The position numbers and the translations under genes were made by a program. From Myxococcales bacterium (GTDB lineage: Bacteria; Lernaellota; Lernaellaia; Lernaellales; Lernaellaceae): a DNA stretch of 64,000 bases. The DNA is taken from NCBI GenBank assembly GCA_012517325.1, contig JAAYVF010000046.1, forward strand, positions 1-64,000, written 5' to 3'. Shown here one piece after another: positions 8,034-19,034 of the stretch (within the stretch, counting starts at the first letter, position 1; each line of letters opens with the position of its first letter). Below the pieces are notes generated by a model. That model ran no database searches, was not told the origin of the DNA, and saw only the letters and a program-made list of their open reading frames with translations.

Positions 8034-9470
8034 TTACAGATACGCGTGGAACAGCTCGTAATTCGGTCCGGCTTCGTTCAACGTCAAAGCCGTTCCGGCC
8101 AGCGAAAGCGGGATCTCGGCATCCGCCGGCGCCTCGATTCCCGGCACGTCCAATTCGACCCGGGGCAGGTAGAACGCGTGGATCCGGCCGCCCTCCGTGC
8201 CGATTTGCAAAAGAATGCCGACCGATTCCTGCCGGGCCGCGGCGGCCCACGGCGCTTCGCCGGTTTTCAAAAAGCCGTCCAATTCCACTTTCACTTCGCG
8301 ATCGGTCGGATACAGGTAGCCGGTGGCGACGGCCGAACCGAAACTTTCGTTGCGCAGTTTGACGTTTTCGGTCAACGCGATCTTGGCGCGGGTCACCTCA
8401 AACACGCGGTCGTTCAACCGGACCTGGCCGAAAATCCCGGCGATCGCCGCGCAGCACGTCGTCAGGTCGGGGTAATAAGGGGTCAATGCGGTGCCGGCTG
8501 GATAATCCTTCGCCGTCGTTGACGCGACGCCGCGGATGACCGACAGGCCGGGGTCTTCCTCGCCTTCGCCCGGAGTGGTCCCGACGACCGTGACGATTTC
8601 CGGCGACAGACTCTGCGGGGCGACCTGATAAAACGCCGCGCCGTTTTTCAAGATCGCGGCGTGCAATTCCTCCACGGGAAAAATAGTCGCGTCGGCACCG
8701 ACATCCCGGGACAACGCCAGCGGACCGAACCGCGCCAGATCCTGGCCCAGGCCGGCCACTTCGATCAACGCCTCCTCGCCCGCCGACGCCGTAAAGGTCC
8801 AACTGTTCGGAATCGCGCCCGACACGCATTCGCCGTGGCGATCCAGCGCCCGATGCAGCGTGACGCTGCCCTGCGGGTTCGTCAGCAAAAAGTAGCACTG
8901 CGACGGTTCCAGCCGGGTTCCCGCCGCGGGCGCGGCCGGCAACGCCGGCTCCCAGGAAAGGCGAACACGATGATCCGTGGCGAACGATTGCACCTCGGAG
9001 ATCACCACCGCCTGGCGTCCGTCGGCCGTTTCGATGCCAATCAGGCTTCCCGGGGAAAACGAACCGTAACTGCCACTCGCCAACGCCACGTCGCAACCGG
9101 ACGTCGTGGGCGCCGTCGCGTTTTGTTCGCCACCGGCTAAGACCGTGGCCGCCGGCGTGGTCCGGATTTCGAAAGTCGCGCCGTACAGCGGATCCAGTTC
9201 CGAGGAAGCCGACGACCGGCTGCCGGCAGCCGCTGAGACCGGCGCATCCGCCAAGGTAATCGACCATTTGACTTCCCGTTTGCCGCGCAGACGCTCGCCA
9301 ACGCTGCGATGATTCTTCCGGTCGCGGCGAACCCGTCGTTCTTCGCTCAGATTGATCACGGCTTCGCGGGCCTGAAACGCGCCGGCCGTCGGCGGGCACG
9401 CCGCGCCGTAGCCGCCCGTTTCCGCGACGGCGAACATTCTTTGCCGATAGCCAAGGCTGTAATCGGACAT
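8034..9470 (-). CDS. phage major tail tube protein (long form)
   Basis: A 478-residue protein starting MSDYSLGYRQ. The C-terminal third has the pattern of phage tail tube proteins: a V-E-LDGFLKTGE segment, I-LLQIGT-x-GG-x-IHAFYLP, then VELDVPGIE and a final IPLSLAGTALTLNE strand. Tube proteins are usually 130-250 residues, so the ~250-residue N-terminal part is extra and may form outward-facing decoration. It is read between the connector gene and the giant tail-tip gene. The ATG was chosen over a much longer upstream frame that overlaps the connector gene. Confidence 0.6.
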   Translation of the reverse strand: MSDYSLGYRQRMFAVAETGGYGAACPPTAGAFQAREAVINLSEERRVRRDRKNHRSVGERLRGKREVKWSITLADAPVSAAAGSRSSASSELDPLYGATFEIRTTPAATVLAGGEQNATAPTTSGCDVALASGSYGSFSPGSLIGIETADGRQAVVISEVQSFATDHRVRLSWEPALPAAPAAGTRLEPSQCYFLLTNPQGSVTLHRALDRHGECVSGAIPNSWTFTASAGEEALIEVAGLGQDLARFGPLALSRDVGADATIFPVEELHAAILKNGAAFYQVAPQSLSPEIVTVVGTTPGEGEEDPGLSVIRGVASTTAKDYPAGTALTPYYPDLTTCCAAIAGIFGQVRLNDRVFEVTRAKIALTENVKLRNESFGSAVATGYLYPTDREVKVELDGFLKTGEAPWAAAARQESVGILLQIGTEGGRIHAFYLPRVELDVPGIEAPADAEIPLSLAGTALTLNEAGPNYELFHAYL

Positions 9471-9510
9471 TTCGCTTTCTCCTCTGAAATGGTCGGTCTG
9501 ATTGGTTCGT

Positions 9511-12324: not shown

Positions 12325-13206
12325 TTAAAAAATCCGCCGATTGCGCGCTTCCTCGCGCCGCAGGATTTCGATCAGCGGCTCGGCGATGGATTCGGCCAGC
12401 GCTCGCGGGTTGCGTTCGGCCGCGCCTTCCACGTTGATTTGAATCTGGAAGGTGTTGCCCGGCGCCGGCAGTTCGCCCGTTCGATTCAGTTCGTAAAGCG
12501 ATGTCGCGCCCAGACGACGCACGACTTCCCGCCGCAGCACGAATTCACCGGTCTGCAAAATCGCCGGGATTTCGTCCGATTTCAGTTCCCCGGCATGATG
12601 GCGCTCCCCCGCGACCGTTCCGCCGCCGTGGAAAATGAACGGCATCCCCTTCAGCAGGCTGCCGGCGCCCGCTCCCGCCCCCGAGGTCATCGCCATGATC
12701 GCGGCGTTGATGCCCTGGATGATCAGCATCTGGGCGGTGACCGAAATGACCTGCTTCAAGACGTTCTTCCAGGCGCGCTCCCAGTCGTAGGTGCCGTCGA
12801 CCAACTGGCCGGCGATCCCGTCGCCGATCGTCGAAATGGCGCCGCCGACGCCGGCCTGGATGACGTTGCGCAGCGCCAGCCACTGGCCGGTCAACTGTTC
12901 GGTCAACTCGCTCGCCCGCCGATAGTTGCGTTCCACTTCCTGCCAGTCGGTGTCGCCGACCGGCATCACGCCGGACACCGCGCCGGGCCAATTGGGCGCT
13001 GTCGCCTGGGCTTGTCCGCCCGCCGGAGCGCTCCCGCCCGAACCCGCCGGAAACAGGCTTTTAACTTCCAGAACCTGGGCGCGAATCGTTCCCAATTCCA
13101 GGTTCCGCAGCCGTTCGCCCAGCACCTGCGCCGCGCGTTGGCCCCAGGCCTTCGGATCGGCGCTCGCATCGGCCGGGAACATCCCGGCCGGAGTCGCATC
13201 GTTCAT
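12325..13206 (-). CDS. short phage tape-measure protein
   Basis: A 293-residue protein. The C-terminal ~130 residues have the hallmark of lambda-type tape-measure proteins: FHGGGTVAGE, then DEIPAILQTGEFVLRREVVRRLGA-x-SLYELN. The middle is helical with small residues (QAGVGGAISTIGDGIAGQLVDGTYDWERAWKNVLKQVISV...) and may insert in membranes. Tape-measure length sets tail length; siphophage versions are mostly 600-2000 residues, while gene transfer agents use much shorter ones. A short tail is therefore predicted. The start overlaps the upstream stop as ATGA (13203-13206). Confidence 0.7.
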   Translation of the reverse strand: MNDATPAGMFPADASADPKAWGQRAAQVLGERLRNLELGTIRAQVLEVKSLFPAGSGGSAPAGGQAQATAPNWPGAVSGVMPVGDTDWQEVERNYRRASELTEQLTGQWLALRNVIQAGVGGAISTIGDGIAGQLVDGTYDWERAWKNVLKQVISVTAQMLIIQGINAAIMAMTSGAGAGAGSLLKGMPFIFHGGGTVAGERHHAGELKSDEIPAILQTGEFVLRREVVRRLGATSLYELNRTGELPAPGNTFQIQINVEGAAERNPRALAESIAEPLIEILRREEARNRRIF

Positions 13207-15101
13207 GCTCGGTTCTCCGCTCTGGCGCATTCGCCGTTCCACCGGTCACGTATCCGCTTGACCCAATCGCCGACGTTTCCCCGGCGGGTCGCTTGCCCCG
13301 GATGAGTCCGATACCACAACACAACCTCGCGCAGATTGCGCATCGTCGCGCCGGCTCGCCACAGGCGCAGCCAGAGGTCCAAATCCTCCGCGACCGGCAG
13401 GCTGGTATCGTAACCGCCGACCTCGCGCCATTTTTCTTTGCGAATCAAAACCGTCGGATGATTGAGGAACCAATTGCCGCGCCGCACCGTTTCGTCGTCG
13501 ATCACCGGCGGATGCGCCGTCGCATCGCCGAACGAACGCCCGTCCCAATGCACCAGTTGCCCGCCCAGCACATCCACTTCGGGATGGTCGGCGAGATACA
13601 CCCACTGCCGCTCCAAGCGGTCGGCCGTCATCACGTCGTCGCCGTCCATGCGGGCGATCCATGCCGCGCGTCCGATTTCGATGCCGGCGTTGAGCGCCGC
13701 CGAGATGCCACGCGGCATCGGAAAGCGAATCAACCGCGCACGGGGATCGCCGGCGATTTCCGCCAGCACGCTCAACGTGGCCTCGTTCCGACTGCCGTCG
13801 TCCACGAGAATCAGCTCCCAACGAACCATCGTCTGCCGGCGCACCGACTCCCACATCTGCCGCAGGTAGTCCGCCGGGGTATCGCGCACCGGGCAGACAA
13901 TGGAAATCCAAGGCGGCAAAGCGGCCGCGAACGCCGCGTGTTGCGCCTCGGCATGCCACGCGCCGTCATGCCGTCGCACCGCCATTTCCCGCGCCCGTCG
14001 CCCCCAAAACTCCCGTGCCGCCGCCGAATCCAACGAACGCAAGGCGTCGAGCAATTGCCAGTCGGTCCGCCCGAGAATCGCCGCGCCGTCGCTCGTGAAC
14101 GGGATCCCGCCGACCGCCCGCGCCACGACCGGCAAACCCGACGCCATGGCTTCCACCAGCGCGTAACTGCCCGTTTCCTCCTCACTGGGCACCAGAACGG
14201 CGTCCAATCGCCGATATTCGCCGGGCATGTCCGCCGGCGATACATCGCCTTGAAATTCGACGAACGGCAGCGACCCGATCTCCCGGCGCACCCTTTCAAC
14301 CCATGGGTTCCAGCGCCCCTTTCCGATAAACCGCAACCGCCAGGCGCCAGGCGCCCAACCTTTCAACGCCGTCAGAAAACCAAGCGGTAATTTTTCCATG
14401 CTGAGCCGGCCGATCACCCCGGCGACCAGCGGCGGCTCTTGCCGGACGACGCCCGGCCGGAACCGTTGCAGATCGACTCCAAGCGGCAGGATGCGTAGCG
14501 CCGGCCAGCTATCGTGGGTCGCCCGCGAAGGCGAATTGGCGAACACCGCCACCGGCTCGCCCCACGCCGGCCGCAGTGACCGCAAAACGTATTCGCCGTG
14601 GATCACCCAAAAAAGCACGCCGCTCACGGGAACGTACCGGCCGTACTCGAATTGCGGGCCGTGATGAACGACCACCTCCGGCGCCAATCGCCGCAGCAAA
14701 TCCGCCGCCTGGCCGGCCGAAGCATCCGCGAACACCTCTGCGCCGGGGAACGCAAACACGCGCTCGCCGCCCGGTGCGATCACCACCGTCCGCCAATGGT
14801 GGCCGCAATGCCCGCACCATTCGTGAATCATTCGTTGCGCCCCGCCGACCGACAGCGGCCAGGGCATGACATGAGCAAGCAGCGGCTTGATTTCGCGCAA
14901 TGCGTCCGTCACCGCCGTCAAAACAGGCGCCGGGGGAGCGGGAAGAATCCGATTTCTTCCCGCGGGCCGGAAAAGCCGGTTCGCGGCGTCGCGGCTTTCT
15001 TGCCAGCCTTTGCGTAACAGCGCCGGCCGCCGCTCGCGCCACCAGCCCGCCGGCACTTGCGTCCGGCGGCCGCGCGCGTTGACAACCCAAACCGTATCCA
15101 T
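13203..15101 (-). CDS. bifunctional GT4-GT2 glycosyltransferase inside the virion gene operon
   Basis: A 632-residue protein with three parts. Residues 1-35 (WVVNARGRRTQVPAGWW...LLRKGW) resemble short phage proteins of the form 'R-x-RG-x-x-VP...LL-x-KGW'. Residues ~70-390 form a GT4 (GT-B) enzyme with GVIGRLSMEKLP and an E-x7-E type motif (EEETGSYALVEAMASGLPVVA, near 305-325). Residues ~397-600 form a GT2 (GT-A) enzyme with SIVCPVRD, ELILVDDGS and the metal-binding ARMDGDD. It lies between major capsid and tape measure, so glycosylation of virion proteins is the likely role (inference). ATG with GGGGGAGG upstream. Confidence 0.85.
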   Translation of the reverse strand: MDTVWVVNARGRRTQVPAGWWRERRPALLRKGWQESRDAANRLFRPAGRNRILPAPPAPVLTAVTDALREIKPLLAHVMPWPLSVGGAQRMIHEWCGHCGHHWRTVVIAPGGERVFAFPGAEVFADASAGQAADLLRRLAPEVVVHHGPQFEYGRYVPVSGVLFWVIHGEYVLRSLRPAWGEPVAVFANSPSRATHDSWPALRILPLGVDLQRFRPGVVRQEPPLVAGVIGRLSMEKLPLGFLTALKGWAPGAWRLRFIGKGRWNPWVERVRREIGSLPFVEFQGDVSPADMPGEYRRLDAVLVPSEEETGSYALVEAMASGLPVVARAVGGIPFTSDGAAILGRTDWQLLDALRSLDSAAAREFWGRRAREMAVRRHDGAWHAEAQHAAFAAALPPWISIVCPVRDTPADYLRQMWESVRRQTMVRWELILVDDGSRNEATLSVLAEIAGDPRARLIRFPMPRGISAALNAGIEIGRAAWIARMDGDDVMTADRLERQWVYLADHPEVDVLGGQLVHWDGRSFGDATAHPPVIDDETVRRGNWFLNHPTVLIRKEKWREVGGYDTSLPVAEDLDLWLRLWRAGATMRNLREVVLWYRTHPGQATRRGNVGDWVKRIRDRWNGECARAENRA

Positions 15102-18035: not shown

Positions 18036-18091
18036 GAGTTCCCATTCATTCCGCCGTGGATCTGTTGATCGGTTTTCGCGCCGGCCCTGCG

Positions 18092-18424
18092 TCAGTGTTC
18101 GTCTTCGGCCGTCTGGTTGACCGAAAGTTCCGCGTCCAATAAATCGAACGCCTGCAGGAGACGCGCGTCCTGGTCGAGGGTGCCGCCCGCCCGCGGCAGT
18201 AAACTGTGTTCGCGATAGCGCCGGTAATGCTTGATCGCCAGAATCGTTTCGCGTTCGATGAGCCGCCAGGGGCAGCGGTTCACGATCTGGCCGCCGAAAG
18301 TGTCGCGGTACGGCCGTTTGCCTTCGCCGTTGCAATTGCGCAGTTCGCGCAGCTTTGTGTTGCATTGGCGGCAGGAAATTCCGCGCGACTTTTTATCCTG
18401 GAAAAATCGCGCGGCGAAAATCAG
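18092..18424 (-). CDS. tail assembly chaperone, -1 frame extension (T-like part of G-T fusion)
   Basis: This frame is open from 18424 to a stop at 18092 and adds 110 residues when ribosomes shift -1 at the end of the upstream gene. It lacks an ATG; only a GTG at 18283 lies inside it, too late for the conserved-looking part. The protein starts LIFAARFFQDKKSRG and has a Cys-rich segment (SCRQCNTKLRELRNCNG ... NRCPWRLI), which may bind zinc, then a helical tail. In lambda and many siphophages the G-T fusion helps load the tape-measure protein. The fusion would be about 244 residues. Confidence 0.7.
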   Translation of the reverse strand: MIFAARFFQDKKSRGISCRQCNTKLRELRNCNGEGKRPYRDTFGGQIVNRCPWRLIERETILAIKHYRRYREHSLLPRAGGTLDQDARLLQAFDLLDAELSVNQTAEDEH

Positions 18425-18430
18425 TTTTTT
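18381..18430 (-). promoter_or_regulatory. programmed -1 ribosomal frameshift signal
   Basis: On the minus strand the heptamer A AAA AAC (18430-18424) sits in frame just before the TGA at 18423-18421. After a 9-nt spacer comes a stem-loop: CCGCGCGA at 18414-18407 pairs with TCGCGCGG at 18388-18381, extended by TTTTT (18406-18402) pairing with AAAAA (18394-18390) with one bulged G. Slippery heptamer, spacer and stem match the standard -1 frameshift design, and the -1 frame then stays open for 110 codons. Confidence 0.8.
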
Positions 18431-18825
18431 ATTTCGCCCTCGTTGAGCAGGCTGATTTCGCGTACCGCGTTCAGGATTTCCCGGTAAAGCCCGCGGAACC
18501 GCAACGGCAGTTGATCGCGGACCGCCAAATAATCCGCGCCGTTTTTCACGGCTTTTTGCCCGACCCAGAGGTTTTCGATTTTCAGCACGTGGGCGCCGAA
18601 GATCGCCGCGTCGATCGTCGGGTTGGCGTCAACGGTAACCTGTCCCGTGGCGGGATCGTAGCGGGTTTTGAATTCGTCGTATTTTTCCGCTTCGCCTTCG
18701 GTCAAGGGCCGCAGATGAAAGATGAGCGACGGATAGGACGGATCCTTGGCGGCTTTGTCCCGTTCGCCATCGAAAAGCGGGAGGTATTTTTTCACGACGG
18801 TGCCGATCAACGGTTCGATGTTCAT
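18421..18825 (-). CDS. phage tail assembly chaperone (gpG-like)
   Basis: A 134-residue protein (MNIEPLIG...). It has the pattern of tail assembly chaperones: a strand with LIFHLRPLTEGEAEKY near residues 34-50, a central variable part, a helix-rich IFGAHVLKIENL...YLAVRDQLPLRFRGLYREILNAV, and the typical ending LNEGEIKN. These proteins bind tape-measure protein during tail assembly and usually carry a frameshift site at their end, as here. TAGGAG lies 8 nt before the ATG at 18825. It is placed before terL rather than before the tape-measure gene, an unusual position. Confidence 0.7.
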   Translation of the reverse strand: MNIEPLIGTVVKKYLPLFDGERDKAAKDPSYPSLIFHLRPLTEGEAEKYDEFKTRYDPATGQVTVDANPTIDAAIFGAHVLKIENLWVGQKAVKNGADYLAVRDQLPLRFRGLYREILNAVREISLLNEGEIKN

Positions 18826-18836
18826 CGTTTTGGCTC

Positions 18837-19034
18837 CTAATTGACGGTAAGATCGTTCAGCAGCGCCTCGTAAGCGGCGAACAATTTTGTTTTGCGATCC
18901 GGGATCAGCCAATCGCTCGTGCCGTCCTGCCAGCGCACCCGTACCCGCTCGCCTTCGATTTCGACGATCCGCCCCCAGAGTCCGAAATCGCGGTCGTGCA
19001 ACAAATCGCCGGATAAATAGTGATATCGAATCAT
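18837..19034 (-). CDS. small phage protein, unknown function
   Basis: A 65-residue protein starting MIRYHYLSGDLLHDRDFGLWGRIVEI. Its core (GRIVEIEGERVRVRWQDGTSDWLIP) is a compact beta-barrel-like pattern, similar to SH3-like or KOW-like folds found in small nucleic-acid-binding proteins. No catalytic motif is visible. A GGAG site precedes the ATG. It is co-directional with the chaperone gene 12 bp downstream and belongs to the leftward operon started by the promoter at 19.4 kb. Confidence 0.55.
   Translation of the reverse strand: MIRYHYLSGDLLHDRDFGLWGRIVEIEGERVRVRWQDGTSDWLIPDRKTKLFAAYEALLNDLTVN

Follow-up and report, generated by a model that had tools for sequence, protein, structure and literature searches.

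A 64,000-nt stretch of DNA from a bacterium that GTDB places in Lernaellota (contig JAAYVF010000046.1, positions 1 to 64,000; hereafter, the window) carries a two-frame tail assembly chaperone cassette that is real and under selection. The cassette is very probably a lambda-type G/GT gene of a siphovirus-like element, in which a minority of ribosomes would slip by −1 on the heptamer A AAA AAC and produce the fusion protein GT. The frameshifted chaperone is a known phage device; its variant with a four-cysteine (Cys4) T domain is uncatalogued in the libraries that we searched. We hold the frameshift reading with high confidence.

Layout of the cassette

The features of the cassette, all on the minus strand, are collected in Table 1, with window positions as coordinates. 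The zero-frame open reading frame (ORF) of the G part closes with GAA ATA AAA AAC TGA, which bears out a first-pass annotation, made from the sequence alone, that had this frame ending in ATA AAA AAC TGA with the heptamer inside. The same annotation described a 13-bp stem-loop with one bulged G, 9 nt past the heptamer, and proposed folding the region 18381-18430. RNAfold recovered a stem-loop at 18381-18414 with the 13 pairs and the 9-nt spacer as described, but it paired the supposedly bulged G as a U-G wobble, leaving no bulge. The predicted structure has a free energy of −20.4 kcal/mol (z = −3.1), and 1 of 200 shuffled sequences was equally stable. The string AAAAAAC occurs 18 times in the window against 12.9 expected and is not rare in itself; because it is common, the evidence for the cassette lies in conservation. 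We rejected a chance heptamer on its in-phase conservation across relatives, which is beyond chance, and not on its mere occurrence.

In the −1 frame the translation reads KKLIFAARFFQDKKSRGISCRQCNTKLRELRNCNGEG...NRCPWRL...LLPRAGGTLDQDARLLQAFDLLD... as far as 18092, a stretch of 110 codons including the stop when counted from 18421. This frame is already open 205 nt ahead of the heptamer's end, and the T part contains SCRQC...NC...NRCPW. The only ATG, GTG or TTG codons in the T frame of the window are a GTG at 18283 and a TTG at 18139, neither with a Shine-Dalgarno sequence. Three of the four cysteines already lie upstream of the GTG, the first start codon in the frame, and no ATG, GTG or TTG that could begin an intact T was found in the window's −1 frame. 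The start-codon listing thus agrees with the earlier description of 110 open codons with no good start of their own, and the GTG-started ORF that ordinary gene callers were expected to report does exist mechanically.

Table 1. Positions in the window of the cassette features and of two neighbouring genes
Feature	Position	Strand	Basis
G part, zero-frame tail assembly chaperone, 134 aa, ATG start	18421..18825	-	ORF list; relatives' G parts match phrog_344
Stop codon TGA of the G part	18421-18423	-	
Shine-Dalgarno AGGAG of the G part, 8 nt upstream of the ATG	18834..18838	-	read from sequence
Slippery heptamer A AAA AAC, in phase, TGA immediately after	18424..18430	-	sequence; kept in 6/6 phylum homologues and most viral ones
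9-nt spacer between heptamer and stem-loop, TGATTTTCG	18415-18423	-	
Stem-loop, 13 pairs including one U-G wobble	18381..18414	-	RNAfold
T part, −1 frame, KKLIFAARFF...AEDEH, stop at 18092-18094	18092..18430	-	translation; homologous to relatives' T parts
Four Cys codons, CxxC...C...CP (18371-18373, 18362-18364, 18332-18334, 18272-18274)	18272..18373	-	invariant in family alignments
GTG-started fragment, possible gene-caller product, judged not a gene	18092..18283	-	begins after three of four conserved Cys; without Shine-Dalgarno
terL, large terminase subunit, the gene that follows the cassette; start placed near 18036-18050 rather than at the ATG at 18365	16809..~18050	-	phrog_2, E 2.6e-43; homologue starts
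Tape measure protein, 305 aa, ~5 kb downstream of the cassette	12325..13242	-	phrog_24, E 1.5e-12; homologues adjoin the cassette in relatives

Conservation of the heptamer in the phylum

Our phylum sample comprised seven genomes, including that of the window, six of which hold exactly one copy of T. Loss of the heptamer in close relatives and a separate conserved start for the downstream frame had been named as observations that would speak against frameshifting, and neither was found: A AAA AAC is present in phase in all six phylum homologues, with T in the −1 frame each time, and no T start is conserved among the homologues. When the conceptual fusion was searched against near and distant genomes, homologues came back in two pieces and two frames, and in none of them did G and T share a single frame. 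The zero-frame TGA stands directly after the heptamer in four of the genomes (G000 to G003), one codon later in G004 and several codons later in G005.

In the six genomes the heptamer takes its first A from the codons ATA, GAA, CGA, CGA, AGA and AGA (Ile, Glu or Arg); the amino acid before AAA AAC varies and the final A of its codon is constant. Among these codons, ATA makes up ~1% of the Ile codons in the window's genes, and AGA and CGA account for 0-9% of the relatives' Arg codons. From each genome's own codon usage, the joint probability of the six heptamer-supplying codons is ~1e-12, a figure to be taken as a guide for sequences that are related and not fully independent. Farther afield, A AAA AAC is kept in both copies of the distant genome G233 and in G342, and A-rich variants take its place in G293 and G032.

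RNA structure downstream of the slip site

Strong stem-loops begin 4-9 nt past the slip in G000 to G004, and G005 has no clear stem. With a null in which the −1 peptide was recoded by random synonymous codons, the structure was significant across the phylum (Fisher p 0.007), and the window alone gave p 0.17. For 20 viral loci of the family described below, a synonymous null with codons weighted by base composition gave a combined p of 4e-12. The viral stem pairs codons of a conserved AVEV motif with codons of a DFNC motif that holds the first Cys. This helix was 76.6% paired versus 30-49% when slid, and at four pairs both sides had changed (compensatory). RNAalifold found only 4 pairs in the viral set because some members use another stem, and the named 13-bp helix fared better on this set than the RNAalifold prediction.

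Identity of the G part

The first-pass annotation had suggested a search against phage chaperone profiles, and this succeeded only through relatives. Direct family searches with the window's G and T matched no library family, but the G parts of two close relatives (G002, G004) and of the distant G233 matched phrog_344, a tail assembly chaperone family, over most of their length with weak E-values of 0.004-0.015. The G of one viral homologue matched phrog_313. In a profile comparison, the viral G group, which included G233, joined that of the window with 98% probability. The relatives' PHROG matches, the adjacent tape-measure gene in five of six genomes and the surrounding head and tail genes give good support to reading the cassette as a lambda-type G/GT tail assembly chaperone. 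The programmed −1 frameshift that had been proposed for this chaperone likewise has strong comparative support, given a heptamer that is kept, a T that is always in −1 and without a conserved start, and RNA structure above synonymous nulls.

A Cys4 T domain in phages and viral contigs

The Cys4 T domain occurs widely, and the libraries that we searched do not catalogue it. Searches that started from distant homologues found it in the cultured phages Alteromonas P24, Agrobacterium JP1, Rhodobacter RcZahn and RcTiptonus, and Rhizobium L338C, and an IMG/VR scan with a P24-type query retrieved 31 loci. The viral family was reached only with such distant homologues; window proteins or the phylum alignment, used as queries on viral and genome contigs, confirmed no relative, and a 13-sequence alignment was too diverse for scanning. 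The SCRQC...NC...NRCPW pattern that had been singled out as new is present and uncatalogued in Pfam and PHROGs, but it is not peculiar to this locus, as the cultured phages and ~30 IMG/VR contigs share the Cys4 T. No convincing match to the T queries was found in Pfam or PHROGs, the window's T had none in NCBIfam, and no description of a Cys4 T domain was found in the searchable literature, a scope outside which most subscription papers fall.

An in-phase A AAA AAC was present in 25 of about 26-28 viral loci analysed, with T in −1 and the zero-frame stop usually immediate. At several viral loci the −1 frame opens only 0-3 codons ahead of the slip, and most viral homologues have no start codon ahead of the first Cys. 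Of the cultured phages, P24, JP1 and RcZahn have A AAA AAC in phase and L338C has G GGA AAC; no in-phase heptamer was found in the last 60 nt of the annotated G of RcTiptonus, which also has the Cys4 T. The tape measure gene lies next to T in P24, JP1, RcZahn and RcTiptonus, and one small gene intervenes in L338C. At the RcZahn locus (L036 2821-2842), the in-phase heptamer with T in −1 is accompanied by a TAATG overlap.

All four cysteines of CxxC...C...C are invariant in three T alignments, including the 13-sequence set and a 21-sequence set. Judging purely from this conservation, the four cysteines probably hold a single zinc ion around which the T domain folds. Comparison of the domain with the PDB gave no sequence or fold match. 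AlphaFold reached a pLDDT of 47 from the single sequence and 70.6 in a 21-sequence run; the latter model has low confidence around the cysteines and gave no significant fold match. The T domains of G233 (L031, L033) and G342 (L032) have an extra insert with further cysteines and a CxxCxGxG-like motif that resembles a DnaJ-type zinc module.

Gene order and the surrounding element

Besides terL and the tape measure gene, the window encodes a scaffold, a major capsid protein, a portal, a possible tail terminator, a CI-like repressor and tail proteins, among them one encoded at 8034-9500. The cassette stands directly before the tape-measure gene in G002, G003, G004 and G005 and directly after it in G001. 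In the window genome it does not adjoin that gene and lacks the upstream position typical of G/GT genes, a positional difference that does not imply exclusion from the class. The cassette's place before terL, instead of before the tape-measure gene, had been put forward as new. Although terL is indeed the next gene here, this arrangement occurs only in this genome and the order differs in the relatives, so the position before terL is a local rearrangement. Like T, terL is found in six of the seven phylum genomes; the flanks are not syntenic.

The element, prophage-like in character, is a compact siphovirus-type gene set, possibly gene-transfer-agent-like. It spans window positions 1-21132, and its counterpart in G001 (~20 kb) spans L015 2328-20000 with L073 1-2334. 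No integrase, replication or lysis genes were recognised in the element, the integrase having been sought by reading the ORFs of the ~20 kb of G001; the contig end, at window position 1, lies inside the element. Likened by gene content alone, RcGTA-type gene transfer agents share the compact head-tail cluster, the short tape measure and the single copy per genome, whereas the window element has a CI-like repressor. A bolder composite reading would have a gene-transfer-agent-like particle descending vertically through the candidate phylum, with a zinc-clamped, uncatalogued class of T and with the stimulatory stem and the start of the metal site encoded in overlapping nucleotides; we regard this as a speculative and rather unlikely combination.

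Several further arrangements were observed. A two-domain glycosyltransferase lies inside the structural cluster (window 13203-15101) and is also present in G001 and partly in G004. In G005, terL is more than 30 kb from the tail genes and on the opposite strand (L019, contig C23 2-14 kb; C23:48653-49900), and in G004 the structural genes are spread over three contigs (C133, C159, C212). G002 has a complete tape-measure copy with three partial ones ahead of it (L016 12650-19424), and the first partial copy ends after ~50 codons of similarity, perhaps through insertion.

Proposed mechanism and alternatives

In the lambda model, G attaches to the tape measure protein, and GT, the less abundant product, brings in tube subunits via T (PMC5009743). 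By analogy, most ribosomes would end at the TGA (18421-18423) and yield G, and a minority, stalled by the stem-loop, would slip back 1 nt on A AAA AAC and add ~110 further residues to give GT. The proportion of G to GT that the slip sets would then matter for tail assembly, with G coating the tape measure protein and T recruiting the tail-tube subunit. The sequence itself provides the elements, their conservation and the lack of a T start; the slippage, its efficiency and the resulting ratio, and the binding partners are inferred. Several observations count against this reading: the window's own G and T match no library family directly, the PHROG matches of the relatives are weak, the cassette of this genome does not adjoin the tape measure gene, the window stem alone reached only p 0.17, G005 has no clear stem, and in E. 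coli A_AAA_AAC shifts much less readily than A_AAA_AAG (PMC5009743). A_AAA_AAC is used by the haloarchaeal virus HCTV-2 (PMC5009743).

It is improbable that the fusion arises by transcriptional slippage, with the polymerase slipping on the A run and transcripts of altered A number being translated normally. RNA hairpins can stimulate polymerase slippage too (PMC5009743), and the run of six A extends to ten in the distant homologue G032. However, six A is short beside documented bacterial runs of about nine (PMC5009743), and in nearly all homologues a C closes the run so that it fits the X XXY YYZ phase exactly, often with the stop next, neither of which polymerase slippage needs. Slightly less probable again is a separate T protein whose translation begins at a start of its own, as it might through coupling or reinitiation once the G stop is reached. 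In RcZahn, a T-frame ATG does overlap the G stop (TAATG) and T is annotated as a separate gene, but this phage still keeps the in-phase heptamer, most viral homologues have no start before the first Cys, and the first T-frame start in the window lies past three of the four conserved cysteines. A decayed gene, in which a single ancestral ORF was broken by a frameshift mutation and the second half yields nothing, would fit the rearranged and scattered gene sets of the relatives and the partial tape-measure copies of G002 but is highly improbable, since dozens of diverse genomes show an identical split at this heptamer, with both halves open and conserved. Both the independent T gene and the pseudogene were thus considered and rejected, and we favour a ribosomal −1 slip on A AAA AAC.

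Comparison with known systems and meaning

The cassette resembles lambda G/GT in its short zero-frame chaperone, the −1 heptamer at the 3' end, a T present only in −1 and the tail-gene context (PMC5009743). It differs in the Cys4 T domain, which is absent from the description of lambda, and in terL as the next gene, a feature of the window. The lambda slip site is G GGA AAG, unlike A AAA AAC. P24, JP1, RcZahn, L338C and the IMG/VR contigs differ from the window in having the tape measure right after T or past one small gene and in using another stem register, and their records are not annotated as a frameshift pair. The T half also resembles the 'pre-TMP frameshift protein' of Rhodococcus phage ReqiDocB7. 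In ReqiDocB7 and Perlina, both Rhodococcus phages, the proteins before the tape measure are annotated as frameshift products and match the C-terminal half of T at 37-43% over ~40 aa, but they are without the cysteine half.

Gene callers overlook T, which has left this half of the G/GT chaperones poorly catalogued. A simple rule, A AAA AAC followed by a stop, with CxxC...C...CP in the −1 frame and usually just before the tape measure gene, finds unannotated frameshift chaperones in cultured phages. It picks out RcZahn, where clear evidence of frameshift sequences was absent according to the authors who described the phage (PMC8601537). The conserved cysteines of the T domain may point to a metal-dependent step in tail assembly.
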